Part shown: positions 4,001 through 18,675 of the stretch, piece by piece
Layout of the letters: each line of letters opens with the position of its first letter
Position numbering within the stretch: the first letter of the stretch is position 1
Assembly (NCBI GenBank): GCA_018609965.1
Contig: JAHENP010000316.1
Span: 1 to 18,675 of the forward strand
Reading direction: 5' to 3'
DNA: 18,675 bases
From: Haloferacaceae archaeon
GTDB lineage: Archaea > Halobacteriota > Halobacteria > Halobacteriales > Haloferacaceae
Notes under the pieces: model-generated
Database searches by the model: none
What the model saw: only the letters and a program-made list of their open reading frames with translations
What the model was told of the DNA's origin: nothing
Position numbers and translations under genes: made by a program

Positions 4001-6588
4001 TCGCAGTCGTACACGCGTCCGCTGTCGTCGAACAGCAGAACCGACTCCCCCGAGTCCGACTGCCGCCAGACGGGGTCGATACGGGCGCGAACGTCACCGT
4101 CGTCGGTGGCTGGCTCCAGCTCCGAGTTGAGGGCGTCGCGGTCAAAGTGATCGAACCGGAGCCGACGGAGCGCGCCGTTCACTACCGACCACCGTTCGGT
4201 GACAGTCTCACGGTCGACATACTCCGGGAGGGGAGCGTCCCACTCGGAGCGCGCCCACTCGTAGGCACGGGTGTAGTCGTCGGCGTCAAGACCGACGCCG
4301 GCGTGTGGCACAAGCCCGGTCGCGACGGCGGCGGCCCGGACAACGTCACACCGCACGCCAGAGTGAGCACACACCCATGCGTCGCCGTCACGCGACTGCT
4401 GAACTCCGTCGTGATCACTCGGTGCGTCGCCGAGGTCGTCGGGAGCAACAGCGTCGGCGGCGGCCCACGCGGTTTCGTGATCAAACGCCACGTCGACCTC
4501 GGTGGGGTCGTCGTGATCACCGCCGGGAGTGGGTCGCTCGTCGTCGGCCGCCCACTGTTCGCGGCCGGGAACGAGACCGACCTCACGACACGCTTCCAAC
4601 GCGGCGTTGTACGTCGCTCCCTCGGGGAACCCGAGGTAGGTGTCGCCGTCGTGGTCGCTCGGGTCGTCGACGACGCCGCCCGTCTCGGCGTCGCGAGAGA
4701 CGAACGCGTCGCGGTCGCACACGTCCAACGTGACGGCCGCCTCGCGGAGCGACCACAACGGCATGCGGCCGTACGGCTCACCGGTGTCGGGGTCGGTCGT
4801 CTCCGCGTCTGGGGTGTAGGCGGGGACGGCAAACCCGTGATCACGGAGCCACTCGCGTCCGACACCCCGCAGTTCGGGGTCGGGGTCGTCAGTGTGCGAG
4901 ATCTCGCCGGCGGCAACGAGCGCCATTTTCACCGGCCCACCGCCAGTCCCGTCTCCAGTGTCGACCCACCAGCCGCCACGGCCGGTGTGAACGTAGTTCG
5001 CGTTGCCGGAGTCGGCGTTGCGCCCCCACACCGGGACGAACGCGCGTTTGCCGTCTCCCGAGCGGTCGGTCAACCCCGAGGCGGCTTCTGTCCACTGAGC
5101 GACGACCGTCGCCTCGGCGACCCGTTCGGCGTCGAGCGCGTCGACAGCGTCGAACACCTCGCGACGGTTCGGCGTAACGGGGGCGTCCGCCAGTTCGTCG
5201 CTAGCGCCGCCGGCACGGTCGGCGCGGCGTGCGGCCCGCCGGTCGGCGTCGGCGTCTGCGGCGTCGGTGGCGTGTGCGCGCCGTCCCTCGACGTGTGTCT
5301 CTCCGCGGAGCCACGTCTGGAGGGTAGTGGCCCACGAGTCACACTCTGCGGACAGCGACGGCCACAGCGTCGCTACGAGGTCGCTCACGGAGTCGGTGTG
5401 TCGGGTGTCGGTGAGACCGCGCGCCCATGCCGCCGACGCGTCGATCACGTCGTCGTCGACCGCCGACGGGAGCGTCGGAGCGTAGTCGACCGACCCACGC
5501 ACGGCGCCCGTCTCGGGGTCGCGGTCGCGGAGCGGGACACACACGAGGTCGTGATCACCGTGCAACGCGAGTGGAGCCTTCGACTTTCGGTTGACGTTCT
5601 GCACAAAGTCAGGGTCGGCGACGCGGTCGGCTCCGTCGACGCGGTCGCAGACACGGCTCCACATATTCCGACTCCACTCGGTCAACCGGTCGCGCAGTTC
5701 CGACATGACGCGGTCGCGAGCGCGGTCGTCTTCGAACAGCCGAGCAACGGGCAACGCGGCTTCTGGCGGCCCGTAGACGTACATCCCTCCGCCGGAGTCG
5801 AGCGCGTACACCGCGTCCGTCTCGACACCGTACAACTCCGCGACCTCGTCGATCATGGCACGCGCGGCCCGTTCGACGGTGGCACGCGTCCGGTCGGGGA
5901 GGTTCCCACGCTGGGGTTTCAGTTCGTCTCGGAGATCGAAGTCAACCCAGAAGCCGAACCCGCGGAGGTCGGCATACTCTGGAGTCGGGGAGCCGGTGCG
6001 GTACTCGCGACCGTCGTCAGTCTCGCGCGACAGAGTCGTGTCGGTGACGGCCGCGGGGTCGTCCCACGAGGTGATCTGGTACACCGTCCGTTCGTCGCCG
6101 TCGGTGCCGAGGTCACGTTGGATCTGCCCCCAGTCACGGGAGAGAGTGAGCGGTCGCGTGCGCGTCTGCCAGCCGGCGTCGATCACGTCCGGGTCGGTCA
6201 CCGGTCGGTTGCTGTACCAGCCGCTTTTGGCGGCGTGACCGAGACACGGATACTCGTCGCCCAGCTCCGCGAGCGCGTCGAACGCCTCGCCGGCCCGGCG
6301 GTAGTGGTCACGGACAGCGTCGCGGTCTCCGCGCCAGTCGGGGTCGTCGATGTAGCCGCCGTCGTCGCGGTCGAACGGGTCGCCCTTGGCGGTGTCCCCC
6401 GGCGCGTCGTCAGTCACGCCCGTTGCCCGCCCGTCGGCGAGGTGTCCGAGCGCGTCGGCGACGGCCGCCGGGGAGGCGTCGATTTCCGGTGAGCCAGCGA
6501 CGCGAGCAACGGCCGCCTCCGCGGGGTCAACATCCCGTACACGACACCATTCTCGCACGGTGTCGACAACCGAATCCGGGTCAGTCAT
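1006..6588 (-). CDS. Giant primase-helicase fusion, probable replication protein
   Basis: This 1860-residue protein probably primes and unwinds DNA for replication of the element. The N-terminal part looks like an archaeo-eukaryotic primase: a metal-binding DxD pair (D216, D218, in GFWVDFDL), a DSGGGMYVY motif (264-272), and a Lys/His motif (RKSKAPLALHGDHDLV, 334-349). Two similar W-x(n)-DSG segments follow near 521-560 and 841-885. The second half resembles an XPD/DinG-like superfamily 2 helicase: a Walker A motif (LPALGKT, 972-978), a cysteine cluster (C1126, C1128, C1131, C1148) where such helicases carry an Fe-S cluster, DVLIGHYTL (1165-1173), a DEF box (1201-1203), LDAT (1508-1511) and motif VI QALLRFGR (1681-1688). 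A winged-helix-like segment spans about 1731-1788 and the tail is acidic. The ATG overlaps the stop of the upstream ORF as ATGA and is preceded by GGTGAG. The fold assignments rest on motifs only. Confidence 0.85.
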   Translation of the reverse strand: MTDPDSVVDTVREWCRVRDVDPAEAAVARVAGSPEIDASPAAVADALGHLADGRATGVTDDAPGDTAKGDPFDRDDGGYIDDPDWRGDRDAVRDHYRRAGEAFDALAELGDEYPCLGHAAKSGWYSNRPVTDPDVIDAGWQTRTRPLTLSRDWGQIQRDLGTDGDERTVYQITSWDDPAAVTDTTLSRETDDGREYRTGSPTPEYADLRGFGFWVDFDLRDELKPQRGNLPDRTRATVERAARAMIDEVAELYGVETDAVYALDSGGGMYVYGPPEAALPVARLFEDDRARDRVMSELRDRLTEWSRNMWSRVCDRVDGADRVADPDFVQNVNRKSKAPLALHGDHDLVCVPLRDRDPETGAVRGSVDYAPTLPSAVDDDVIDASAAWARGLTDTRHTDSVSDLVATLWPSLSAECDSWATTLQTWLRGETHVEGRRAHATDAADADADRRAARRADRAGGASDELADAPVTPNRREVFDAVDALDAERVAEATVVAQWTEAASGLTDRSGDGKRAFVPVWGRNADSGNANYVHTGRGGWWVDTGDGTGGGPVKMALVAAGEISHTDDPDPELRGVGREWLRDHGFAVPAYTPDAETTDPDTGEPYGRMPLWSLREAAVTLDVCDRDAFVSRDAETGGVVDDPSDHDGDTYLGFPEGATYNAALEACREVGLVPGREQWAADDERPTPGGDHDDPTEVDVAFDHETAWAAADAVAPDDLGDAPSDHDGVQQSRDGDAWVCAHSGVRCDVVRAAAVATGLVPHAGVGLDADDYTRAYEWARSEWDAPLPEYVDRETVTERWSVVNGALRRLRFDHFDRDALNSELEPATDDGDVRARIDPVWRQSDSGESVLLFDDSGRVYDCDPALDRTLRPLEVVALDSGLVSWATLASDDGLTGTAWNTAYWLARTVYGAPLPAWDGRAPRHTVVLPDADDLPDAAEVDAADRLQGARDAVADLYDDAATTPGADVLRVLPALGKTHQVAHQASDHPVFYGAPRAELMKGMLDRCRDAGVSAYALPTFGEVAPPDHVVDAGARAVREEGQQLLRDRAALVDETEDRLDDGATVPHPGDLGDDDSADLPRESCETADGVHGPEWWLAVHVARERGHRPERLHSDGTTLFGDPLPCACDECVDPADDHDHDAHRDTLCAYSRAWEHAADPDHPFDVLIGHYTLAHVPTARSYIARDSDGEVVREPRTVALDEFVGDAFHESFGDEWRDAAVWAGGLLDSGVVDFADLTERGLWSDDAVRGWIDGEPPDSLAELADTLAMLRECLARPAAVARDTLNSSARPARTDAVDTLEHVADLGLPSPRRLETVYRAVARLDDDDRDRRADDEIDDMAQSLATLRHRLRDAGVDSVAELVDSRLAAARDHLAGDLANVVDDAVRSLATGDADTAVATLDTASRAVRGGRDGVEQVALWSDDGDSHPLAHTLLAAAAAPRDADASTVVECDAFGWGGDGDGPTRVQRVAVGNRDTVLADRDGHGATVSHPPAFDGADGGDCPVVGLDATARRRLWSLALGTEVDVRDVHDDMAERREFVRDVFGMSVIQTTDDALYYEGDPSSIDLDGPTELLREISERHGTDPGVITTKSVETRLQGRDDAVAEEWAHYGDLTGSERLVGHDVAALLGCQHWGDAVVERWAALAGEEVHRTGHGTGLSYGSGVADDALGLMRDDQVLQALLRFGRSAGSDVTVYAHTGCLRDDVPVVDRGEVVRTYSETAQTVAETAADLTGRWTRSDLQRRLEARDDADDLATSDSRLRGILRDLRDRGYIETVDESPGRATVYGDASNSGAGEVTLPDTDTDDEPPEDHSQYTYTWSHRVADGTRPANGVTAARGATIPSPDDSTAVAEGDPPPS

Positions 6589-7077: not shown

Positions 7078-7857
7078 TCAGTCGGCTGTCGTCGCGGAAC
7101 CGCCGCGGTCGGGATCGACACCGGCGTCACGCCGGTCGGCGAGCGCACGGCGCGCCAGCGTCAACACCCACGGGAGCGCATCGTCGATCTCCAGGCTGGC
7201 GAGACCCTCGTGTTCGACCGTCTCGACAAGCTCCCTCACCCGGTCGCGGTCGGCGAGACCGACGGCGTCTGCCCACTCTTCGGCGTCTGCCCACTGCGCG
7301 GCCCGTGCGAACCCCCACGCCGCGAGCGCCGCCACGGGCATGCCGTACGACGACCGCCATCCACCCGCCGCCTCGCCAGCCGCCTCGAACACCTCGCCGA
7401 CGGCGTCGGGAGCGGCGTCAACCGCGCGTCGGACCGCCGGCTCCGGGACGGCGTCGACGGAGATCTCCCCGTCGGCGTCGGGAGCGTCGCCGTCACAGAC
7501 GACCCACACGTGTCGTTCCATCTGCGGGACGTGTCTCCGGGCCGCTCGCGGCTGTCCATCGACCCATCCGGTGACGACCGTTCGCCAGCCGTCGTCGTCG
7601 TCGCGCGCCACGAGGTCGACGCGGTCACCGTCGACGAGCGACGCCAGACGCTGTCGGTGCGGCCACCCGAGTGTCGACACGTTGGCCTTTCCCCCGACGC
7701 CGACGCGTTCCGGGTCGATCACGCCGTCGTGAACCGCGTCAACCACGGCCCGGAGCGTCTCGTTGGACGTGACTGCGACCGTGTCGACGCTGGCGAACAC
7801 CTCGGAGACGCTCGCGAACCCGACCGGAGCCGCCTCGAACCGTCGCGCGTTGGTCAC
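7078..7857 (-). CDS. Hypothetical protein, 259 aa
   Basis: I do not recognise this protein. It is acidic and apparently soluble, with no signal peptide or membrane segment. It has an N-terminal alpha/beta-looking part (about 1-120, including a GWPHRQR stretch followed by alternating hydrophobic strands) and an Ala-rich helical C-terminal part (about 140-245) with several Trp. The GTG start overlaps the stop of the preceding mini-gene (GTGA), so translation is probably coupled. It is the last gene of a four-gene minus-strand cluster headed by the DUF5821-like protein, and two hairpins follow it. The coding call rests on haloarchaeal composition and the tight overlap. Confidence 0.75.
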   Translation of the reverse strand: MTNARRFEAAPVGFASVSEVFASVDTVAVTSNETLRAVVDAVHDGVIDPERVGVGGKANVSTLGWPHRQRLASLVDGDRVDLVARDDDDGWRTVVTGWVDGQPRAARRHVPQMERHVWVVCDGDAPDADGEISVDAVPEPAVRRAVDAAPDAVGEVFEAAGEAAGGWRSSYGMPVAALAAWGFARAAQWADAEEWADAVGLADRDRVRELVETVEHEGLASLEIDDALPWVLTLARRALADRRDAGVDPDRGGSATTAD

Positions 7858-7946
7858 CGCCGCTCACCCCCCACGACCGCCGCCGCGGTCGTCGGAACCG
7901 TCACGAGCGTCTCCACCACCTCGCGGAGAGACCCCGAGACTGTCAT
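7854..7946 (-). CDS. 30-residue mini-protein resembling the DUF5821-like N-terminus
   Basis: This very short gene fits exactly between its neighbours: ATGA overlap with the upstream stop and GTGA overlap with the downstream start. Its product begins MTVSGSLREVVETLVTVPTT. That resembles the N-terminus of the DUF5821-like protein of the same cluster, where TVSG, LREV and VTVPS occur in the same order with extra residues between them. It could be an internally deleted remnant kept as a coupling peptide, or a small partner that imitates that domain. No function is known to me. Confidence 0.55.
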   Translation of the reverse strand: MTVSGSLREVVETLVTVPTTAAAVVGGERR

Positions 7947-9284: not shown

Positions 9285-9491
9285 ATGCTGGAAAGGCTCA
9301 CTGCGGCGGTTGTCGCGCGTCCGGCCGTCGTTGTCGTCGTCGTCGCCGCCACACTCGTTGTCACCGCCACGCTCGCCGGAGACGCCGCGACCGCCGTCGA
9401 CGCCACGACGCTCGGAACAGAGAACGGAACGTTCGAAACGCAAGACGGAGTCGGTTGGACCGGCCCGCCAGAAGTCGGGGGCGGCAGTTAG
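9285..9491 (+). CDS. Small single-span membrane or secreted peptide, 68 aa
   Basis: The peptide has a basic N-terminus (MLERLTAAVVARP), a strongly hydrophobic Val/Ala segment (about residues 14-32) and a polar, acidic, Gly-ending tail, fitting a membrane anchor or uncleaved signal. It is one of only two plus-strand genes I support, and its end overlaps the end of the convergent CHAT protease gene by 4 bp. A TATA box sits at the right distance. The start also resembles the first segment of haloarchaeal RND/MMPL-type exporters, so it could be a fragment of one. Pairing with the protease (substrate, anchor or toxic peptide) is only an idea from position. Confidence 0.6.
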   Translation: MLERLTAAVVARPAVVVVVVAATLVVTATLAGDAATAVDATTLGTENGTFETQDGVGWTGPPEVGGGS

Positions 9492-11497
9492 AGATCTGCT
9501 GGCCAGCGCAGTTCGTCGTCGATCACCACTGGTGAGTTGAGCCGGTCGCGGAGTTTTGCTCTCGTGTCTTCACCCAGTTCGTACGTCTTAGTTCCACCCA
9601 GTCTGTCGGATTTCTTCAGAACATCAGAAATGGCTGACCCCGGTGAGTCCGGCGAACGGTGATCGACACTCACTGTACGCTCGTCTGTGTCGACGACGAC
9701 AAGCGGAGGGGACACTGCGGGTGACCGGGCAACGCGGGTCGCCCCGTCCCCGACGACCGCCCACCCGAGCGGGTCGCGCGCCCGTCGCAGTAGATCGACG
9801 GCACGCTCGACACACCACCCGTGAGACAACAGCCCAGCCAGGTCGGCACCGTCCCGACGAGCATCCTCGCGGAAGACTGTCCCGAGCGTTCCGACCGCCG
9901 CGTCGGCTCCCCGCTCGGCGGTCGTGCGTGCCAACTCCTCGGAGCCGCACACGTTCCAGACGACGACGCTGGGCGCGACCGCTTCGGGAACGTCGAACTC
10001 GTCGAACGTCTCTCCGTCCGCGCAGACGACCCCCTCCCCGGAGTCGTGGCCGGCCACATGGATCACGTCGTGGGGGGACTTCAGCGCCGTCTGGAGTCGG
10101 TCAACTGTTGGGGACGACACCACCGAGAGGTCGATCTCGTCGTCTCCAACTGTCTCCCTCCACTTTTGTGCTGTCTCCCCAGCCGTTTCCCCGCCACACT
10201 CCACGACGGTCGCTCGGAGCGGGTCGTCGTCTCTCCCGGTGGCTGGGGACGGCGCCGGCGCCGAGAACTCGAACGCCCCCGCCGGCTCCCCCGGCGCCGC
10301 CCAGCCCGTCATGGCCTCGCCCGTCGACGACGGCGCCAGCCGCAGGGTCGGCTGATCAACTGCCTCCGGCCCGCGAATTGCCTCCCGCGCACGCTCTTGG
10401 TATAGCATTTCGGGCAGTTCCATCTGGCGCGCGCGAGGGAGCCGAACGTCGGGAAGCCGTCCGAGTGTCCCCACGACGGACGTGAGTTGATCGACGCTCG
10501 GCTCCACGTGGAGCACTTCGGGCCATGCCGGCAGTTTGTCGTCAACTCGGTCGTCTGCCGTGAGGTACCGCGCGACCCGCTCGGCAAGCGGGAGTTCGTA
10601 CAGCGTTTCAGCGTCGGCTTCGACAGCCGCCAACACGCTGTCGTGGTTTTGGAGCCGGGAGCCGTGTTGCCCGGCGGCCCGGACGTGACAGTCGAGGTGG
10701 AAGACTCGTCGAAGCCACGACGATGCTCGGCGGTCAACCGCGTCTGGGTCGCTCCCGAGCGACCACTCACTGCCGGCGGCCCGGAGCCGCGCCTCCGACG
10801 CACCAGGGTCGACACTCACCTCGGCGCCGGTGTAGACGGCGAGGGACGATGCTGCAACGACGAACTCCAGGCTGTCCGGGAGACACAACTCGACTCCCGT
10901 GTCCGGTCGATCTACCTCCGACGGAGACGTACCGCGGTCGCTCGGGCCGTCGACCACCACGGGAGCGTCTCGCCGGGCCGCCGGCCACGTCCGGTCTGGG
11001 GTCTCCGTCTCCGGCATTGCAATCACCGCGGCCGCCTCCACGGCCGCCGCGACGCCCGCCGGGTCACCCGACGGGAGAGAGATCTCCGCGGGACCATCGT
11101 CGTCGTCGGACGCCACCCACCCCACGGCCGCGTCTCCCGACGGGTGGAGTGTCGCGCGACCGTGGCCGTCAATCGAGACCCGTGTCCGGCCGTCGACCCG
11201 CACGACCGACGTGACCGGTGACTCCACGACGACCACGTCTCCCTCCGTGAGCGTCGTCGACGACTCTTGCGGGAGTCGGCCGCCGCCGACGACCGAGACC
11301 CCTCCGCGCGGCAGAGTGATCTCTTCTACATCAGTCACTGCTGTCTCATGCGTGACCGGCCACCCGTCCGGGTCGATCACGGGCCGGCCGCCGCCTACCT
11401 CCCCGTCGACACGGACAGTCGAGCGGTGTTGTCCGTGTTTCCCGACGATTCGGCTGTCGTCTCTCTCGATGTCCATACCGGCAAACTCGTCGCTCAC
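9488..11497 (-). CDS. CHAT-domain cysteine protease, haloarchaeal type
   Basis: This 669-residue protein carries a caspase-like CHAT domain near its C-terminus. The His of the dyad is H484 (IHVAGH), and the Cys is C517 (VWNVCGS), followed by the typical ELARTTAERGADAAVGTLG helix-strand and LLSHGWCVERAVDLLRRA helix. The N-terminal 300 residues are strand-rich (for example GDVVVVESPVTSVVRVDGRT), with no TPR repeats. Its partners and substrate are unknown. CHAT proteases in other systems act in defence or programmed death. The GTG start was chosen because GGAGG (complement 11508-11512) lies 10 nt upstream; an ATG eight codons in is the alternative. The gene lies 70 bp downstream of CRISPR array 1 in the direction of array transcription, so read-through could link them. 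Its end overlaps the small membrane gene. Confidence 0.88.
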   Translation of the reverse strand: MSDEFAGMDIERDDSRIVGKHGQHRSTVRVDGEVGGGRPVIDPDGWPVTHETAVTDVEEITLPRGGVSVVGGGRLPQESSTTLTEGDVVVVESPVTSVVRVDGRTRVSIDGHGRATLHPSGDAAVGWVASDDDDGPAEISLPSGDPAGVAAAVEAAAVIAMPETETPDRTWPAARRDAPVVVDGPSDRGTSPSEVDRPDTGVELCLPDSLEFVVAASSLAVYTGAEVSVDPGASEARLRAAGSEWSLGSDPDAVDRRASSWLRRVFHLDCHVRAAGQHGSRLQNHDSVLAAVEADAETLYELPLAERVARYLTADDRVDDKLPAWPEVLHVEPSVDQLTSVVGTLGRLPDVRLPRARQMELPEMLYQERAREAIRGPEAVDQPTLRLAPSSTGEAMTGWAAPGEPAGAFEFSAPAPSPATGRDDDPLRATVVECGGETAGETAQKWRETVGDDEIDLSVVSSPTVDRLQTALKSPHDVIHVAGHDSGEGVVCADGETFDEFDVPEAVAPSVVVWNVCGSEELARTTAERGADAAVGTLGTVFREDARRDGADLAGLLSHGWCVERAVDLLRRARDPLGWAVVGDGATRVARSPAVSPPLVVVDTDERTVSVDHRSPDSPGSAISDVLKKSDRLGGTKTYELGEDTRAKLRDRLNSPVVIDDELRWPADL

Positions 11498-11567: not shown

Positions 11568-11864
11568 GCTTCAACCCCACAACGGGTTCATCTGGTACTG
11601 AGCGTCACCGTCGTCATTCGTCACCCTCCGGAGGCTTCAACCCCACAACGGGTTCATCTGGTACGCGCGGTGTGGCGGGCCGAACGGCGTCCGACTCTCC
11701 GCTTCAACCCCACAACGGGTTCATCTGGTACGACACCCTGACCGACCCTCCACGCTCGTCGACGATGCTTCAACCCCACAACGGGTTCATCTGGTACCGC
11801 TCGGTTCGAGCGGCCGCTCGTGACGGTTCCGACGCTTCAACCCCACAACGGGTTCATCTGGTAC
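11568..11864 (-). CRISPR. CRISPR array 1: 5 repeats, 4 spacers
   Basis: Five identical 31-nt repeats start at 11568, 11634, 11701, 11767 and 11834. Spacers are unique, 35-36 nt (11599-11633, 11665-11700, 11732-11766, 11798-11833). On the minus strand the repeat begins GTACCAGATGAACCCG and ends GTTGTGGGGTTGAAGC, close to haloarchaeal type I-B repeats and with the usual GTTGAAGC-like 5' tag, so transcription should run on the minus strand. The conserved leader lies at the right end, in agreement. AACCC/GGGTT can form the repeat hairpin. No cas gene is in the window. The repeat variant (GTACC start) differs from arrays 2 and 3 (GTTCC). Confidence 0.93.
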
Positions 11865-11962
11865 CATGCCCGGAACGGGCATGTACAGCCTGCTAACGCC
11901 CGCCCAGCACTTAGTGGTTCCGTCGACCCGCAATCACCCCCCAACCCCCGTGGGGTCAACGG
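11865..11962 (-). promoter_or_regulatory. Leader of CRISPR array 1
   Basis: This 98-bp sequence is shared with the leader ends of arrays 2 and 3, with five differences. It starts with a perfect hairpin touching the first repeat (CATGCCCG, loop GAA, CGGGCATG; 11865-11883). It also contains the palindrome CACTTAGTG and a CCCC/GGGG hairpin. The loop differs from the other leaders (AAC) while both stem arms are kept. I see no TATA box inside it. Confidence 0.8.
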
Positions 11963-12960
11963 ACACCTCACCCCACGCCCCCGTCGACGGTCGTCGTCTC
12001 TCGTCGATCACGGCGGAGCCGCCGTACGCCCGGTCGCCCAGCCGTCGCTCGCCGCTCGTCGACGGAGCCGGCCGCCCCAGCCGGAGCCGTCGGTGTCGAT
12101 CACCCCGTCTCGGACACCCCACGCCCCTATATAAAACGACCAACTTGTGAACAGCCTGTACGAGAACATCCGTGCGCGAACAGGGTCGGCGGTCGCGAGC
12201 GGGAGCCGTCGAACGGAGCCGTCGCCGCCGGGCGTCGACGGAGCCGTCGCGAGCGGGAGCCGTCGTCGACCGCCCCACCCGCCGCCCACGTCGCCCCGCC
12301 CGTCCGCCGTCGACGGAGCCGCCCCACCCGCCGCCCACCGACGGAGCCGTCGCCCCCAGCCGCCGTCGATCACGTCCGCCGTCGACGACGATCTCCGCCA
12401 CGGAGCCTCGCCTCGCCCGGCGGCGGCGCTGCTCGTCGAGGCGACAGTGTGTCGGTGTGGTGAGGGGTCGGCGCATGGCGGTGGAGGTGGACCGTGGGAC
12501 GGCGGCGTGGTGGGTGAGCTGTGAAGCGTGGTGTCGAGACGCTGATACGCCCCACGCTCCGCCGCCGCAGTCGACGAACTCCTCGCCGTCGGGAGCCGTC
12601 GTCGGTCGCCGCCCACCTCGCCCCGCACGCCGTCCCGCCGCTCGCCCCGCACGCCGTCCCGCCTCGCCGGTCGCCCCCAGCCGTCGCGTCGCCGTCGTCG
12701 GCCGCCCCAGCCGCTCGTCGTCGGTGCCGCCGGAGCCGTCGACGACGATCTCCGCCACGGAGCCGCCGACGGAGCCTCGCCGTCGACGGAGCCAGCGTCG
12801 ATCACCGCCGCCTCGCCGTCGGTCGCTCCGTCGGAGTGGTCGCGAGCGGGAGCCGTCGAACGGAGCCGGCGTCGGCCGCCTCGCCGGGCGCCGTCGACGA
12901 ACTCCTCGGCGCGAACACTGCGGTCAGAAACCCATCTGTATACCAGTCTCCGACACGACG
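11963..12960. repeat. Modular GC-rich mosaic block B (gene-free)
   Basis: This block is built from the same words as block A, including GACGACGATCTCCGCCACGG (twice, with AGCC following) and GTCGGAGTGGTCGCGAGCGG. It also has short tandem units such as CTCGCCCCGCACGCCGTCCCGCC repeated near 12630-12662. No gene is supported. A strong TATA-like element interrupts it at 12128. The last part (12910-12960) is less repetitive. Confidence 0.65.
12128..12136. promoter_or_regulatory. Strong, near-symmetric TATA box inside mosaic DNA
   Basis: TATATAAAA is an isolated AT-rich island in GC-rich mosaic DNA. Read rightward it would drive RNA into mosaic block B, starting near 12158. Read leftward (TTTTATATA) it would start near 12106 and run through leader 1, array 1 and on to the CHAT gene. 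A GTG at 12147 opens a 125-codon plus-strand frame that soon becomes mosaic words, so I do not call it a gene. Confidence 0.45.
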
Positions 12961-13026
12961 CCTCCCGCTACCCCCGTCTCCACCCTGTTCTTCCCGGTGT
13001 TTCGGCCGTCGGAGCGTGCCGAGTGA

Positions 13027-13047
13027 CGGAGAACCGGGTGTTCTCCG
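13027..13047 (-). terminator. Hairpin just after the 117-residue membrane protein gene
   Basis: Arms CGGAGAAC and GTTCTCCG pair around a 5-nt loop. The hairpin begins 3 nt beyond the stop codon on the minus strand. No T-run follows, so its role as a terminator is inferred from position. Confidence 0.5.
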
Positions 13048-13050
13048 ACA

Positions 13051-13404
13051 CTACAACGCTGCTTTTGCTGCTTGACCGACTGGTGTTTTCGACGCTGTGC
13101 CCGTCACCGTTTTGAGTCCGATGATACCGACAGCAACCGCTCCGAGCGCCCAAATCCACAGAGGTATCCCCAACGTGACCGTTTCCACCGTCCCGTCGAT
13201 GATACCCCCTCCAGGTTCGTCGTCGAACGTCCGCGCGACCGCCTCGTCAGTGGAGCCGAGCACATGGTCGGCTGTCTCCACCGTCCCGTCGATGATACCC
13301 CCTCCAGGTTCGTCGTCGAACGTCCGCGCGACCGCCTCGTCAGTGGAGCCGAGCGCATGGTCCCAGAACCCTTCGTCTGTGTTCCCCTCGTTTGTTGTAC
13401 TCAT
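13051..13404 (-). CDS. Single-span membrane protein with internal 31-residue tandem duplication
   Basis: This 117-residue protein starts MSTTNEGNTDEGFWDHALGS. Residues of the form HxLGSTDEAVARTFDDEPGG...IIDGTVETxD are present twice in tandem (period 31 residues, 93 bp), then comes a membrane segment (VTLGIPLWIWALGAVAVGII) and a short basic tail ending KAAL. The topology is probably acidic domain outside, short tail inside. The ATG at 13404 follows a clear TATA box (GGGAATATAAGG). A longer upstream frame exists but is mosaic DNA before the promoter. It may be a small surface or virion-type protein. I know no family. Confidence 0.8.
   Translation of the reverse strand: MSTTNEGNTDEGFWDHALGSTDEAVARTFDDEPGGGIIDGTVETADHVLGSTDEAVARTFDDEPGGGIIDGTVETVTLGIPLWIWALGAVAVGIIGLKTVTGTASKTPVGQAAKAAL
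13184..13358. repeat. 93-bp tandem duplication inside the membrane-protein gene
   Basis: Two in-frame copies begin at 13184 and 13277. They are almost identical at the DNA level (I see one change, A to G near the end), including at third codon positions, which points to a recent duplication. Confidence 0.85.
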
Positions 13405-13412
13405 ATCATACG

Positions 13413-13424
13413 CCTTATATTCCC
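13413..13424 (-). promoter_or_regulatory. TATA box of the 117-residue membrane protein
   Basis: The minus strand reads GGGAATATAAGG, about 10-20 nt before the ATG at 13404. A second AT-rich stretch (13433-13446) lies just upstream. The start is probably leaderless or nearly so. Confidence 0.55.
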
Positions 13425-13467
13425 ACCTTGTCTTAGATATTATCATCGGACGCCTCCCTGCACGCAC

Positions 13468-14330
13468 CCCTGGGACGACGGAGCCGCGGAGCCGTCGATC
13501 ACGTCGTCGGTGCCGAAGCCGGTCGCGCGCCGTCGTCGACGACACCCGCCGTCGGTGTCGTCGGTCGTTCCGTCGGTCGCCGCGTCGGTGTTCCCGGCCG
13601 CCGTCGGTCGCTCCGTCGGTGCCGTCGGAGTGGTCGCGAGCGGAGCCGTCACCACAGCTCCACCAGCCGCTCCAGCCGCTCGTTGTCGGTGTCGGAGCCG
13701 GTCGCGAGCGTCGTCGACGACGAACACCTCGCCGTCGGTCGCCCGCTCGTCGAACGGAGCCGTCTCTCGTCGGTCGCTCGCCGTCGCGTCGCCCACCTCG
13801 CCCGCCGCCGTCGAACACCCGGAGCCGTCTCTCGTCGTCGACGACGATCTCCGCCACGGAGCCGTCGGAGGGAGCCGGTCGCTCGTCGATCACGTCGTCG
13901 ACGGAGCCGGCGCCCAGCCGGCGGTCGCGAGCGTCGATCACGCCCCTCCCGCCGCCGAGGTCGCTCGTCGGTCGCCCCAGCCGTCGCTCGCCGCTCGTCG
14001 ATCACGTCCGCCGTCGACCGCCGCCGGCCGCCGCCCACCTCGCCGTCGCCCACGTCGCCGTCGTCGGTGCCGTCGACGGAGCCGCTCGCCCCCGGCCGCC
14101 ACCGGTGCCGTCGACGTACGGAGCCGGTCGCTCGTCGATCACAGCTCTGCCAGCCGCGACTGCCGCCCCGCTCCGCGGGCGGTGTCGACCCACCTCGCCG
14201 TCGTCGCCCCGGCCGCCGCCGCAGTCGACGAACTCCTCGCCGTCGACGTACGTCGTCGGTCGCCGCCGACGGAGCCGGAGTCGGAGCCGGAGCCGCCGTC
14301 GCCCCGGCCGTCGGCGCGCCTTCCCCCGTG
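13468..14330. repeat. Modular GC-rich mosaic block C (gene-free)
   Basis: This block uses the same vocabulary as blocks A and B. A 43-bp stretch (13641-13683) is identical to 123-165, about 5.2 kb away if the molecule is circular. GACGACGATCTCCGCCACGG appears again near 13839. Short leucine-rich ends such as ERLERLVELW-stop can be read on the minus strand, but no complete gene is supported. Confidence 0.65.
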
Positions 14331-14431
14331 TGGGTCACGGTGAGCCACACCGGCCCGCTCGGCGGGGGGAGACTCGTCTTGCCGACGGTCGGGTGGCCCG
14401 GCGTGGCCCACACGGTGAGGTCGTCGTCGAC

Positions 14432-14795
14432 GCTTCAACCCCACAACGGGTTCATCTGGAACGGGACGACCGGACAGTGGTGGTCGGAGGCGGCACGGGC
14501 TTCAACCCCACAACGGGTTCATCTGGGACTCGGCCGTGATCGACCGGCCGGCACCGGTGTCGGAGCTTCAACCCCACAACGGGTTCATCTGGAACCTCGG
14601 AGCGTGGACAGTCGCGCGGCGCGTCACACTCGCTTCAACCCCACAACGGGTTCATCTGGAACACTCGTTGGAGACGCCGCTCACACGCTCGGCACGGAGC
14701 TTCAACCCCACAACGGGTTCATCTGGAACACCGCGTCCCTCGTGTTTGGGGTTGGGTCGACGACGCTTCAACCCCACAACGGGTTCATCTGGAAC
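14432..14795 (-). CRISPR. CRISPR array 2: 6 repeats, 5 spacers
   Basis: The 31-nt repeats start at 14432, 14499, 14565, 14632, 14699 and 14765. Spacers are 35-36 nt and all different. On the minus strand the repeat begins GTTCCAGATGAACCCG and ends GTTGAAGC. The copy at 14499 carries one change (GTCCC start instead of GTTCC). Orientation and leader position are as in array 1. No spacer is shared with array 1 or 3. Confidence 0.93.
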
Positions 14796-14946
14796 CATGC
14801 CCGAACCGGGCATGTACAGCCTGCTAACGCCCGTCCAGCACTTAGTGGTTCCGTCGACCCCCAATCACTCCCCAACCCCCGTGGGGTCGACGGAGCCGGT
14901 CGTCGACGGGGCCGCTCGTTGCCCGCCTCCCCGCCGCCGTCGGTCG
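14796..14946 (-). promoter_or_regulatory. Leader of CRISPR array 2 (151 bp, duplicated at array 3)
   Basis: It starts with the hairpin CATGCCCGAACCGGGCATG touching the first repeat (14796-14814). It also carries the CACTTAGTG palindrome and a longer inverted repeat, GTCGACCCC (14853-14861) with GGGGTCGAC (14883-14891). The whole 151 bp matches 18102-18252 with one mismatch, and its right part already consists of mosaic words. Confidence 0.8.
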
Positions 14947-15196
14947 CGTCGCCCACGCTTGTCGATCACCACCGACGGAGCCGCCCCAGCCGCCGGTCGC
15001 GAACGGAGCCGCCCCAGCCGCCGACGGGCGCCGGTCGGGGCGGTGCGACCGGGGTCTCGGCGGGTCAACCCTCGGGGTCACGCCCCCAGAACCCGCCTTA
15101 ACCCGCCGCTCACTGGGGTGAGCCGCCAGAAAGCCGGTCAGAACAGTCGCACGGTGGTGTCGGCGGCGAGGAACTCCTCGCACGCCGTCGACGCCG
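14947..15196. repeat. Mosaic block D and end of the RHH operon
   Basis: Words such as CGGAGCCGCCCCAGCCGCC and GTCGATCACC continue to about 15060, then less repetitive DNA runs to the zinc-finger stop codon at 15197. No gene is seen. Confidence 0.5.
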
Positions 15197-15346
15197 TCAG
15201 TCGTCGACGGAGACGACCATGTCGCGAGCGATACGGCCGCGGAGGTCGTCGTGCGTCCCGAGGTGGCCCTGGTAGTCCGACCACGTGAACCCCAGCAGTC
15301 GAGTGTCGCACGACGGACAGCGTGCGGGTGGCGTCTCGCGAGTCAC
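15197..15346 (-). CDS. 49-residue C2H2-type zinc-finger protein
   Basis: This short protein begins MTRETPPARCPSCDTRLLGF and contains CPSC followed by WSDYQGHLGTH, giving a C-x2-C ... H-x3-H zinc site (C10, C13, H28, H32). Single-finger proteins of this size are common in haloarchaea and are thought to bind nucleic acid or regulate genes. The GTG start overlaps the upstream stop (GTGA), making it the third gene of the RHH operon. The tail (DDLRGRIARDMVVSVDD) is acidic and has no further motif. Confidence 0.78.
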   Translation of the reverse strand: MTRETPPARCPSCDTRLLGFTWSDYQGHLGTHDDLRGRIARDMVVSVDD

Positions 15347-15966
15347 GAGTCGATCAACTCCTCGGCGGCGTCGACGAGCGCCTCCCGCAGAGAGCCGCGC
15401 GGGGCCGTTTCGCCGCCGTCGTCGGGCAAGACGACATGGCCGGACGGGTCAGACTCCACGCTCACGATAAGCCCGCCAGACTGCGACTCGTCGACGACGA
15501 CCCGCGTCTGCGTGTTCGACGCCTCTGTCCACATCGACGCGCGAGATACGTCAGTCTGTTCCGGGTCAACCACGTCCGCCAACTGTCGGGCGGCGGCTGG
15601 CTCCAGGTACGCTGTCGCGTCGTCACCGACAGACTCGTGAGCCCGTTCCTCCGGCCGCACGCGGAGTCGGACGCGGTTGGCGGCGGCCGCCGCAACCGAC
15701 ACTGTCCCCGGCCGCGTCTCGTCGACTGGAGCGTCTGCTGGCGACCACCTCCAACTGCCGGGCACCGTGGCCGCCGCGGTCGACTGCCGCTCGGGGTTCT
15801 CGACAACCTGGTCCGCCGTCTCGCGGGCCGCCTCCCGAACGCCTGACTCCGACCCGCCGACGACGATCTCGCGGCTGTCCCCCGCGACCGAGACGACTCC
15901 TCCGGCCGCGAGCGTGTCGAGTTGGTCGTCGGACAGCTCCACCAGCAACCGCTCGATACCGCTCAT
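15343..15966 (-). CDS. Hypothetical protein, 207 aa, second gene of the RHH operon
   Basis: I do not recognise this family. The N-terminus (MSGIERLLVELSDDQLDTLA) is a helix pair, followed by VVSVAGDSREIVVGG strands. A second strand-helix unit (RVRLRVRPEERA ... AAARQLADVVD, about 110-145) lies in the C-terminal half, which ends in an amphipathic helix (LREALVDAAEELIDS). That half resembles the 150-residue protein at 7943-8395. The ATG at 15966 was chosen because it overlaps the RHH stop (ATGA); a longer frame to 15996 would run into the RHH gene. Its coupling to a probable autoregulator suggests a partner or effector of the RHH protein. Confidence 0.72.
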   Translation of the reverse strand: MSGIERLLVELSDDQLDTLAAGGVVSVAGDSREIVVGGSESGVREAARETADQVVENPERQSTAAATVPGSWRWSPADAPVDETRPGTVSVAAAAANRVRLRVRPEERAHESVGDDATAYLEPAAARQLADVVDPEQTDVSRASMWTEASNTQTRVVVDESQSGGLIVSVESDPSGHVVLPDDGGETAPRGSLREALVDAAEELIDS

Positions 15967-16532
15967 GAAGCACCCTCGGAGTTGAACCCGACCCACTCGT
16001 ACCGGTCTGACCCCGAGACGGGTGTCTCCACGCAGTCGAGTTGTCGCGCGACCCCCGACAGCAACCGGCCGGGCGCCGACACGTCGGCGAACGTGTCGGC
16101 GACTTCGGCGAGATCTCCCGAGCGGGTACGCCTCCCCGCCGCGAGCGACTCCAATGCCGCAACGACGCCGTCGACGCGGTTGTCACGACGAGCGTATTGC
16201 ACGTTGTCCCAGTCAAGCGCCTCAACCGCGGATCGAATCTGTGCCACGGTGTCGGTGTCGACATCGGCGTCGGGGTCGGCGGCGATACCGGGGTCGTCGA
16301 CGACGGCGTCGGGAGACTCCAGCCGCTTGAGCCGTCGGTGGAGGTCGCCCACCGTCACGGGCCCGGTGTCGCCTTCCTCGCCGAGGTACGGCGTCTCGCC
16401 CGCGCCGGCCGCCGCACGAACGGAGTCGTTGATCACTGCCGAGATCGACACGTCGCGTCGCTCGGCTTCGGAGCGTACCCACTCGTCTGTGTCCGGTTCG
16501 AGCGTCACCGTCGGGCGTGTGCTTTGGCCCAT
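15963..16532 (-). CDS. Ribbon-helix-helix DNA-binding protein with C-terminal extension
   Basis: The N-terminus (TRPTVTLEPDTDEWVRSEA, then RRDVSISAVINDSVRAAA) matches the strand-helix-helix of CopG/Arc-like RHH repressors (about residues 5-42). The remaining 145 residues are acidic and helical and may bind a ligand, partner or second subunit. The ATG lies inside an inverted repeat that could be its own operator, with a second copy upstream of the promoter, so autoregulation is likely. The gene is first of three overlapping genes. Alternatives are a plasmid partition (ParG/Arc-type) or copy-number regulator or an antitoxin, but the partner looks like neither ParA nor a known toxin. Confidence 0.8.
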   Translation of the reverse strand: MGQSTRPTVTLEPDTDEWVRSEAERRDVSISAVINDSVRAAAGAGETPYLGEEGDTGPVTVGDLHRRLKRLESPDAVVDDPGIAADPDADVDTDTVAQIRSAVEALDWDNVQYARRDNRVDGVVAALESLAAGRRTRSGDLAEVADTFADVSAPGRLLSGVARQLDCVETPVSGSDRYEWVGFNSEGAS

Positions 16533-16541
16533 ACTGGGCCA
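16525..16541. promoter_or_regulatory. Operator-like inverted repeat O1 at the RHH start codon
   Basis: TGGCCCATACTGGGCCA has perfect 6-bp arms with a 5-bp centre, and contains the complement of the RHH start codon. Protein bound here would block transcription start or translation. Confidence 0.65.
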
Positions 16542-16552
16542 CTACGACCCAC

Positions 16553-16563
16553 GGGTAGTTAAG
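16553..16563 (-). promoter_or_regulatory. Probable promoter of the RHH operon, between two operators
   Basis: The minus strand reads GGCTTAACTAC, an AT-richer stretch about 25 nt before the ATG at 16532. This is a weak TATA match in the right place for a leaderless transcript. Confidence 0.5.
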
Positions 16564-16567
16564 CCTA

Positions 16568-16584
16568 TGGCCCACACCGGGCCA
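16568..16584. promoter_or_regulatory. Operator-like inverted repeat O2 upstream of the RHH promoter
   Basis: TGGCCCACACCGGGCCA has the same two arms as O1 with a different 5-bp centre. The two sites start 43 bp apart, about four helical turns, which would put two bound dimers or tetramers on the same face of DNA. Confidence 0.65.
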
Positions 16585-16589
16585 CGACC

Positions 16590-16945
16590 GCCCACCTCGC
16601 CGCCGCCAACGGAGCCGTCGCGAGCGTCGCGGTCGCCTCCCCGCCGCACGCCGTCGGACGGAGCCGCCGACCGCCGTCGCCCAGCCGCTCGTCGACGGGA
16701 GGCGGAGCGGTCGCGACCGGGAGCCGTCGACGCCGCCCACGTCGCCCACCTCGCCCCACGTCGCCACCGTCACTGCCGTCTCGTGGTGTGGGTCGCGGTG
16801 GGCCACGCCGACTCCCGAGGAGTTCGTCGTCGCTGTCGTCGACGGAGCCAGCGTCGGTCACGCCGGTGCCGGTCGCGAGCGTCGCCGACGACGAACGCGA
16901 GTTCGTCGCTCGCGACGGAGCCGCGCCGTCGACGCCGACGGTTTG
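16590..16945. repeat. Modular GC-rich mosaic block E (gene-free)
   Basis: Words such as GGAGCCGTCGCGAGCG, GCCCACCTCGCC and GTTCGTCG repeat. No gene is supported. Some open frames run through it on both strands but have no constant reading frame. Confidence 0.55.
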
Positions 16946-16961
16946 CGCCGGCGCAACCCCG

Positions 16962-16994
16962 TCGAACCCGGTTTCCACACGACCCCACGGGGTC
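16962..16994. repeat. CGAACCCGGTTTCC motif and GACCCCACGGGGTC hairpin
   Basis: GACCCCACGGGGTC (16981-16994) is a hairpin with 6-bp arms. Its core resembles the ACCCC/GGGGT element in the CRISPR leaders. The adjacent GAACCCGGTTTCC recurs near 17520, just after the 94-residue gene, so these short sites bracket that gene. Confidence 0.4.
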
Positions 16995-17021
16995 GCACGG
17001 CGTCGAGACGACGATCTCCCT

Positions 17022-17057
17022 CGTTGCACAACTCTCGGCGACCCCCCTTGTGCAACG
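17022..17057. promoter_or_regulatory. 10-bp inverted repeat upstream of the 94-residue gene
   Basis: CGTTGCACAA (17022-17031) and TTGTGCAACG (17048-17057) are perfect complements 16 bp apart. The half-site recurs at 17174. This suits a protein-binding site, possibly for the 94-residue protein, or an origin or partition site. Confidence 0.55.
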
Positions 17058-17173
17058 GCGCCGGTGAGGTGGGCGTGATCGACCGCGTCACCCCCCGCTC
17101 GCCGGCGTCGATCACGCCCGAACCCCGGCTTCACCGCGTTCCAGCTACCGGCTCAACCACCCTGAACGGAGGG

Positions 17174-17185
17174 GGTTGTGCAACC
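17174..17185. promoter_or_regulatory. Third copy of the TTGTGCAAC half-site, near-palindromic
   Basis: GGTTGTGCAACC lies 40 bp before the ATG at 17225 and matches the half-sites of the inverted repeat at 17022-17057. It is placed where an operator would control the 94-residue gene. I see no strong TATA box. Confidence 0.5.
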
Positions 17186-17224
17186 AGTCGCCGGACTTTC
17201 GACCCGTGACAGCGTAGCCGACGT

Positions 17225-17509
17225 ATGCGGATTCAGTCGACAGACGACCGAGAACGACTCTGGGAAGATCTTCGCGAGGCGACCGGCGAGGGGCACACGT
17301 CTCAAGCGCTCGACGCCGCGGCGCGTCACTACGTCCGTTGTCGCGGTGACACCGCGGCTGTCCCGACCGGCACGTACGCCGAACTGCTCCGCGCCGCCGA
17401 CGACGCCGACGCCGGTCTCGGGCCAGAACAAATAGCCGAGATTCTCGACACCGACGAACTCGCAGTCTCCGCCTCCACGACGACCGAGATCTCCGTCGGC
17501 GACGACTGA
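17225..17509 (+). CDS. 94-residue putative RHH-like DNA-binding protein
   Basis: The N-terminus (MRIQSTDDRERLWEDLREATGE, then HTSQALDAAARHYVR) fits a short strand and two helices, like small haloarchaeal RHH-type proteins. A second helical part follows, with LGPEQIAEILDTDELAV (about 64-80), and the tail is acidic. I recall similar small proteins from haloarchaeal plasmids, but cannot name the family safely. The gene stands alone on the plus strand with three TTGTGCAAC half-sites upstream, arguing for self-regulation or for a role at a nearby replication or partition site. The ATG start gives the full strand-helix-helix. Confidence 0.78.
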   Translation: MRIQSTDDRERLWEDLREATGEGHTSQALDAAARHYVRCRGDTAAVPTGTYAELLRAADDADAGLGPEQIAEILDTDELAVSASTTTEISVGDD

Positions 17510-17619
17510 CGGCCGGCTGGAACCCGGTTTCCCCCACGTCTACCCCACAGTTACGATTCCAGAACCGGTGTGTAGACCGTACGAGCGGCGGCAGAACCAG
17601 CGAATCGGGGCGCACGCCG

Positions 17620-17932
17620 TCAGTCGCGAGCGGGAGCCGGTCGGTGCCGTCGCCCCAGCCGCTCGTCGACGGGAGCCGTCGCCCACGTCGTCGCCCACCT
17701 TGCCGTCGATCACCGCCGACAGAGCCGTCGTCAGAGTGGTCGCGAGCGTCGGCGGAGCCTCACGCCCCAGCCGCCGTGCGCCGTCGACGTACGGAGCCGT
17801 CTCGAACGCCCGCCGTCGCCCCGGCCGCCGCGCCGCCCAGCCGGAGCGGTCGCGAGCGTCGACGGAGCCGGAGTCGTCGACGGAGCCGTCGCCCACCTCG
17901 CCGTCGTCGGTGCCGGAGCCGGTCGCCCGCTC
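17620..17932. repeat. Modular GC-rich mosaic block F (gene-free)
   Basis: Words shared with other blocks include GCGAGCGGGAGCCG, CTCGAACGCCCGCC, GCCCACCTCGCCGTCG and GTCGACGGAGCCG. This block runs directly into array 3. Before it, 17510-17619 is a short non-repetitive spacer with no gene. Confidence 0.6.
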
Positions 17933-17935
17933 GTC

Positions 17936-18101
17936 GCTTCAACCCCACAACGGGTTCATCTGGAACGCGGAGACACCGGGCGTGACGACTCCGTCGACGG
18001 CGAGGCTTCAACCCCACAACGGGTTCATCTGGAACCCTCTACTGGAGACGTTCGGCCGGCTCACTCTGCCGCTTCAACCCCACAACGGGTTCATCTGGAA
18101 C
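17936..18101 (-). CRISPR. CRISPR array 3: 3 repeats, 2 spacers
   Basis: The 31-nt repeats start at 17936, 18005 and 18071 and match the common array 2 repeat. Spacers are 38 and 35 nt. Leader and orientation are the same as in the other arrays. Confidence 0.9.
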
Positions 18102-18252
18102 CATGCCCGAACCGGGCATGTACAGCCTGCTAACGCCCGTCCAGCACTTAGTGGTTCCGTCGACCCCCAATCACCCCCCAACCCCCGTGGGGTCGACGGA
18201 GCCGGTCGTCGACGGGGCCGCTCGTTGCCCGCCTCCCCGCCGCCGTCGGTCG
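18102..18252 (-). promoter_or_regulatory. Leader of CRISPR array 3
   Basis: This is identical to 14796-14946 but for one base, including the CATGCCCGAACCGGGCATG hairpin touching the first repeat and the GTCGACCCC/GGGGTCGAC inverted repeat. Confidence 0.8.
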
Positions 18253-18470
18253 TCGACGGAGCCGCCCACGCCGTCGCCGACGGAGCCGGTGTCGGTGCCG
18301 CCGCGGAGCCGTCTCGAACGCTCGCCACGCCCACCGTCGTCACTGCCGACGACACCCACCTCGCCGGTCACCTCGACCCAGCCGTCGCCGACGACGATCT
18401 CCGTCACGGAGCCGGCGGTCGCCCACCTCGCCGTCGCTCACGTCGGTCACGAGGTCGCCGTCGACGTTGC
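18253..18470. repeat. Modular GC-rich mosaic block G (gene-free)
   Basis: The block continues from leader 3. It contains a variant of the GACGACGATCTCCGTCACGG word and several GGAGCCG cores. No gene is seen. Confidence 0.55.
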
Positions 18471-18675
18471 ACGACCACCCCTCTACCTCACCTTCACACC
18501 CCCCTCGAACCCCTCTACGGACACCCCAGCTACCTTTCTTACGGGGCCGCTCACCTTCCTCATACCCTCGATTTCTACCGGTGTCACCGCCAACCCCCCT
18601 CACGACCCCTTCCGACCCCCCCTCACGGCCCCTTCACACCCCCTCTACCTCCCCTCGCGGCCCCCCTCTACCTCC
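18471..18675. repeat. C/T-rich tract at the right end of the window
   Basis: Runs of C with the words CCCCTCTACCTC, CCCTCGAACCCC, CCCTCACG and CCTTCCGACCCC match the left end. The last 11 bases equal the first 11. The minus strand is strongly G-rich, with several closely spaced G-runs of four or more. No gene is present. Confidence 0.65.

Follow-up and report, generated by a model that had tools for sequence, protein, structure and literature searches.

How could three short arrays of clustered regularly interspaced short palindromic repeats (CRISPR) come to stand on one small archaeal replicon with related leaders and no cas genes, and on whose proteins would they depend? The question is raised by contig JAHENP010000316.1 of a Haloferacaceae archaeon (assembly of 2,612,205 bases in 361 contigs, 74.07% complete), which was analysed over its entire length of 18,675 bases, hereafter the window. 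The account that we consider quite likely is that a plasmid captured a type I-B leader together with its repeat, that this unit was copied and the copies regrown into separate arrays, and that the arrays rely on Cas proteins of the host. The arrays, their leaders and the shared flanks are arranged as follows:

11568 to 11864, minus strand (the strand of the CRISPR RNA, crRNA): CRISPR array 1, five repeats of the GTAC variant and four spacers, the newest spacer at the right
11865 to 11963, minus strand: leader of array 1, conserved unit of 99 bp
14432 to 14795, minus strand: CRISPR array 2, six repeats and five spacers
14796 to 14894, minus strand: leader of array 2, conserved unit of 99 bp
14895 to 14946, no strand assigned: 52 bp past leader 2, common to array 3, marking the copied block
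17936 to 18101, minus strand: CRISPR array 3, three repeats and two spacers
18102 to 18200, minus strand: leader of array 3, conserved unit of 99 bp
18201 to 18252, no strand assigned: 52 bp past leader 3, common to array 2

With a repeat of 31 nucleotides (nt) and 11 spacers of 35 to 38 nt, all distinct, these elements are arrays with a repeat of the haloarchaeal I-B kind, of about 30 nt, and spacers of near-constant length. A preliminary description of this DNA gave their sizes correctly as 5, 3 and 6 repeats but not their order, which from left to right is 5, 6 and 3. It was right in assigning to arrays 2 and 3 a repeat variant that array 1 lacks: eight of their nine repeats end in GGAAC and one, in array 2, in GGGAC, whereas all five repeats of array 1 end in GGTAC, a variant absent from every other array listed in the genus comparison. 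Eight of the 14 repeats reach the gathering score of the Rfam family CRISPR-DR24; every one of these lies on the minus strand, and neither the five GTAC repeats nor the one with GGGAC is among those listed. The leader therefore stands at the right-hand side of every array, whose newest spacer is the rightmost one. CRISPR arrays grow at the leader end, and new repeats are copies of the leader-proximal repeat; the presence of GTAC in five of five repeats therefore suggests that array 1 probably grew in place.

Each of the three arrays adjoins, at its first repeat, a conserved haloarchaeal leader of a single family, as had been claimed, the conserved unit extending about 99 bp beyond the repeat. 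Leaders 2 and 3 agree over 151 bp with a single mismatch (position 14869), just as first described; the five differences attributed to leader 1 over its first 98 bp hold against leader 3, while six separate it from leader 2. The three leaders of the window form one clade (97/93) against eight others in a tree built from 11 repeat-plus-leader rows of the genus; locus L028 (G016), whose stretch did not show the leader, was left out of the leader alignment. The block of 52 bp common to arrays 2 and 3 past the leader argues for copying within the replicon, and since the likeness of these two arrays on the array side ends at the leader-proximal repeat, the copied unit may have been the leader and one repeat only. 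Judged from the sequences, it is probable that copying of a leader with one repeat took place inside the replicon. The earlier proposal of a cassette copied there is upheld by the single origin of the three leaders, most strongly for arrays 2 and 3 with their shared flank, and its second part, that spacers were gained after the copying, agrees with the difference of all 11 spacers and with the repeat variant confined to array 1.

When leader and repeat are searched in their own genome, other contigs give E-values down to 1e-40 and below, beyond chance. A 132-base query of repeat and leader matched 19 of 60 genomes, its own included; among the matches listed, 13 of the 19 genomes have one of at least 120 bases, five have the repeat end only and one is absent. 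The same query matched 17 plasmid records, 16 of them over at least 80%. The leaders had also been described as hairpin leaders. The 12-bp inverted repeat at their far end is well kept, with 90.7% of cells paired in 19 aligned leaders. All three leaders of the window have a perfect hairpin adjacent to the repeat; in the same alignment it is paired in 61.2% of cells. For the two helices together the covariation score was reached by 39 of 500 shuffles and the percentage paired by 21 of 500; conserved structure is thus not borne out by covariation, and we claim no RNA hairpin for the leader.

On whose proteins, then, would such arrays depend? No cas gene was found in the window, in line with the preliminary description, either among nine of its 96 open reading frames (ORFs) of at least 80 amino acids, the nine judged likely genes and scanned with Pfam, PHROGs, NCBIfam and PADLOC, or in six-frame searches for Cas1, Cas7/Csh2 and Cas6, which covered the whole genome and none of whose matches fell in this contig. 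A matching type I-B effector set, as predicted from gene models, is present in trans. The suggested search of haloarchaeal genomes with leader and repeat for a cas-linked host locus led to contig C246 of the same assembly, which carries the window leader and an array with 11 copies of the window repeat, of which the farthest is decayed; one more decayed copy stands apart. Behind the array, in the same orientation, lies cas6 (65.8 bits against a cut-off of 58.65), and cas6 overlaps an open frame of 544 amino acids that runs off the contig end. Because the last 58 residues of this frame show 93% identity with the beginning of a cas8b fragment on contig C59, and because parts of it resemble cas-locus DNA in three other genomes of the genus, we read it as a probable cas8b. 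The frame on C59, the later part of which matches Cas8b (47.2 bits, a partial match below the cut-off), opens the order cas8b (end)-cas7-cas5-cas3, in which cas7 and cas5 lie above their cut-offs, and cas3 above that of the HD model and below that of the helicase model; past cas3 stand uvsE and, on the other strand, an orc1/cdc6 gene. The genes cas6-cas8b-cas7-cas5-cas3 accompany the window repeat within one assembly, in what we infer to be one locus and one cell, and their presence on C246 and C59 favours the earlier suggestion that the plasmid arrays would use host Cas6 and Cascade.

Further copies of the window repeat and leader occur in the same genome on C153, with five copies of which the far ones are decayed, and on C167 (L013 735-860), where a leader stands with one decayed repeat and without an array. 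The overlap of C246 with C344 is 141 bases. Cas7 of type I-B is found in all four genomes of the genus. In G001 and G002 the arrays beside I-B genes carry a different repeat, so that in these two genomes the I-B genes found are not the neighbours of the arrays with the window repeat.

The preferred account can be laid out as a series of steps. A small haloarchaeal plasmid would have acquired a type I-B leader with its repeat from a host-type locus, the leader and one repeat unit would have been copied within the plasmid, and each copy would have acquired its own spacers at the leader end. Minus-strand transcripts would be cut by host Cas6, and the crRNAs loaded into the host Cas8b-Cas7-Cas5 complex, working with Cas3. 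The plasmid would in this manner add guides to the host set and depend on host proteins. Spacers would be added in trans by a Cas1-Cas2, for which the candidate is not certain.

Host Cas1-Cas2 are putative in this scheme. No cas1, cas2 or cas4 was seen beside the I-B locus on C59, Cas2 and Cas4 not having been searched for genome-wide. The single Cas1 found in the genome is closest to the I-D model (363.9 bits, below the cut-off of 385) and stands beside a different repeat; contig C281 (L016) contains an I-D locus with Cas10d, Cas7, Cas5, Cas3', Cas4 and Cas1, and a 37-nt repeat is present twice at the end of this contig. Of the other genomes of the genus, G002 yielded no Cas1; the one Cas1 of G001 is closest to I-D, and the one of G003 belongs to type I-B. 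Adaptation by the I-D Cas1 through a shared leader was considered and rejected: the I-D leaders of G001 differ by eye from the I-B leader, and nothing therefore directly supports this route. If it were true that the I-D Cas1 adds the spacers, the genus would lend itself to testing whether adaptation can cross CRISPR types.

What the arrays are directed against was approached by comparing the spacers with several collections. Arrays of this sort on mobile elements had been said often to target rivals, and mini-CRISPR arrays that exclude rival elements would have spacers matching related viruses or plasmids; in the partial search described here no protospacer was convincing. All 11 were searched against phage records, as three array stretches, with matches of E 0.4 or worse, mostly to phages of bacterial hosts, and E 2 for Halorubrum virus CGphi46. 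Three of the 11 were searched against plasmids (A1s4 with a best E of 0.1, in Natrinema; A2s5 without a match; A3s2 with a best E of 0.3), and exact pieces of 25-26 nt from three of the 11 against IMG/VR. The five spacers of array 2 and A1s4 were searched against their own genome, the other five against the compared loci only; the best match of array 2 in the genome outside arrays, on contig C287, has E 0.018, and A1s2 gives a 20-nt match with one mismatch in G002 (E 0.002 against the compared loci). A1s4 was also compared with 170 genomes, mostly with the best five candidates scored per genome, and part of A2s4 with A2s5 with 392 genomes, with the best two scored per genome; among the matches listed, those viewed fell at the repeat.

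The best new lead is a partial match between the newest spacer of array 1 and the plasmid itself:

11798 to 11833, minus strand: A1s4, newest spacer of array 1, whose 19 seed-end nt match positions 7891 to 7909 of the window
7891 to 7909, plus strand: partial self-match of A1s4 in crRNA orientation, 19 nt, preceded by GTC and lying within an ORF of 30 amino acids (7854 to 7946, minus strand)

The 19 nt are anchored at the seed end, and none of 1,000 shuffled spacer sets reaches this length, three reaching 18; over the whole spacer, 25 of 36 positions match. Matches of 62 spacers from other arrays of the genus to the window, and of the 11 window spacers to 22 other loci, do not exceed 15 nt. 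The matching site may be derived from a related plasmid, or the match may be due to chance through shared codon usage, which the shuffles model incompletely. Another seed-end match, of 16 nt between A3s1 and positions 12776 to 12791, was set aside: three of its nucleotides lie inside the repeat, the site falls in a repetitive mosaic, and 16 nt were reached by four of 1,000 shuffled sets.

As to the carrier, the contig seems to represent the larger part, or the whole, of a small haloarchaeal plasmid, a reading that is drawn from the occurrence on plasmid records of relatives of one large protein:

1006 to 6588, minus strand: plasmid-type protein of 1,860 amino acids, a probable replication protein with relatives on small haloarchaeal plasmids

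Matches to this protein were found by tblastn in 25 plasmid records, none of which reaches at least 80% of its length in one place, and the two of these records that were examined are circular, with 13,972 and 18,285 bases. Three full-length relatives have 34-37% identity, and DnaG_N is present in two of the three aligned relatives. The protein also matches three phage records, over 6% of its length. A virus origin was rejected, the best PHROGs match among the nine scanned ORFs having an E-value of 0.0035; scans of IMG/VR returned no relative of the protein and no occurrence of the array repeat. Another contig of the assembly, C154 (L053), of about 6.7 kb, encodes a distant relative of the same protein (36% over 417 residues); its ends overlap by 141 bases, and it is therefore probably a circular plasmid.

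Could the arrays instead be dead remnants, captured by recombination and neither read nor extended? They are short and come without adaptation genes, orphan arrays being shorter on average according to the passages of a plasmid survey that concern them (PMC9071438), and decayed repeats are found on the host contigs C153, C246 and C167. The arrays of the window itself, however, contain no decayed repeat (eight of 14 are consensus, five carry the array-wide variant and one has a single change), and their leaders retain the conserved blocks, apart from one change in leader 1, in its far inverted repeat, so that we hold this explanation to be unlikely. Separate uptake of the arrays from host loci, with no copying within the plasmid, would agree with the distinct repeat variant of array 1 and its distinct flank past the leader, yet it would leave the grouping of the three leaders in one clade against eight others of the genus to be explained, and it is already disfavoured for arrays 2 and 3 by the 52 bp that they have in common; on the whole it appears quite improbable. 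We give similarly little credence to the idea that one repeat with its leader is a minimal unit that spreads, copying itself within a small plasmid and being regrown by I-D adaptation into arrays serving kin exclusion or self-regulation in place of plain immunity. The lone decayed copy on C167 and the partial match of the newest guide to the plasmid's own operon would fit it.

That partial match invites a narrower explanation. A guide of the CreA type has a seed match, with the cognate protospacer-adjacent motif (PAM), at the promoter of a linked gene. A1s4 could similarly guide Cascade to the plasmid's own operon (7078-7946), resulting in repression or in primed adaptation without cutting, somewhat in the manner of the CreA RNAs of haloarchaea (for CreTA, see PMC9458426). 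Its seed-end match has a length that no shuffled set attains and that other spacers, at 15 nt or less, fall short of. The GTC before it is one base off TTC, and in Haloarcula hispanica priming of adaptation was seen with partial matches that had CTC, TCC or TAC (PMC3936756). Against this, GTC still differs from the TTC of H. hispanica, which may not be the PAM here, only 25 of the 36 positions match overall, the site lies within a small ORF and not clearly at a promoter, and weak, non-significant matches are also found in two Natrinema plasmids (26 nt, 92%, E 0.1). We regard a regulatory role of A1s4 as very improbable.

Several observations count against the account that we prefer, of a captured and copied I-B unit relying on host proteins. 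The partial search of phage, plasmid and IMG/VR sequences and of the own genome gave no convincing protospacer, and no Cas1 of type I-B was found in the genome, at 74% completeness of the assembly. C246 and C59 have no exact overlap of at least 15 bases, and no NCBIfam model matched the 544-amino-acid frame; for these reasons we can only infer that the two contigs are parts of one I-B locus, in one cell with the window. The assignment of the window contig to this genome rests on binning. Its ends show no terminal overlap of at least 15 bases, so that it does not close, and its 1,860-amino-acid protein has no convincing Pfam match. Moreover, ten stretches with relatives of this protein, from nine replicons (L055, L056, L083, L084 and L086-L091, some of them partial), are without an array of this repeat family, no repeat with fewer than 12 mismatches being found in them. 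Short repeats are present in L086.

Cas-less plasmid arrays and repeated leader-array units are both already known, and the present arrays look like a good example of a known arrangement, not a new system. The survey cited above gives, where it treats plasmids, 207 orphan arrays and a non-redundant set of 17,608 bacterial and 220 archaeal plasmids (PMC9071438). Its orphan arrays are likewise cas-less, and use of host Cas proteins in trans is proposed for them there; the present case differs in that three leader-array copies lie on 18.7 kb and that the assembly also contains a matching effector locus. Plasmid pGSL19_54.9 of Halobacterium sp. GSL-19 has three arrays, each followed by a related leader, within 4 kb, but cas7b, cas5b and a DEAD/DEAH helicase are annotated beside them. 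Plasmid pNG300 of Haloarcula marismortui (39.5 kb) has a related leader with arrays and no cas gene among its 46 listed genes, in an incomplete gene table, but its repeat is a different one, with 11 or more mismatches. Several arrays with like leaders in one cell are also seen in Haloferax volcanii (P1, P2 and C), where the P1 and P2 leaders are given as 95% alike in the relevant part of PMC7521656; unlike the present arrays, P1 and P2 flank cas genes. For Haloferax lucentense, PMC12596717 proposes that adaptation is outsourced to another replicon; its provirus system differs in having effector genes of its own. The literature searched on this kind of system does not name the plasmid described here, and we make no claim that it is unpublished. 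The locus points to a likely route by which cas-less arrays originate on small plasmids, namely copying of a leader with its repeat, the matching effector locus lying in the same assembly.

Some features of the window stand apart from the arrays. About 5 kb were taken as non-coding (1-1000, 11964-13050, 13410-14431, 14900-15330, 16540-17220, 17510-17935 and 18200-18500), and these regions are rich in short shuffled modules that keep to one strand, GTCGACGGAGCC occurring 18 times on the plus strand and once on the minus strand. Searched in 40 genomes, a non-coding piece of 961 bases recurs within this contig only, apart from one short match in each of three other genomes. A protein of 669 amino acids (9488-11497, minus strand) has no family match in Pfam, PHROGs, NCBIfam or PADLOC; among public predicted proteins it has 13 matches, itself counted. 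By eye, a stretch of about 31 residues is duplicated within a small protein at 13051-13404 on the minus strand, which also has a likely membrane segment.

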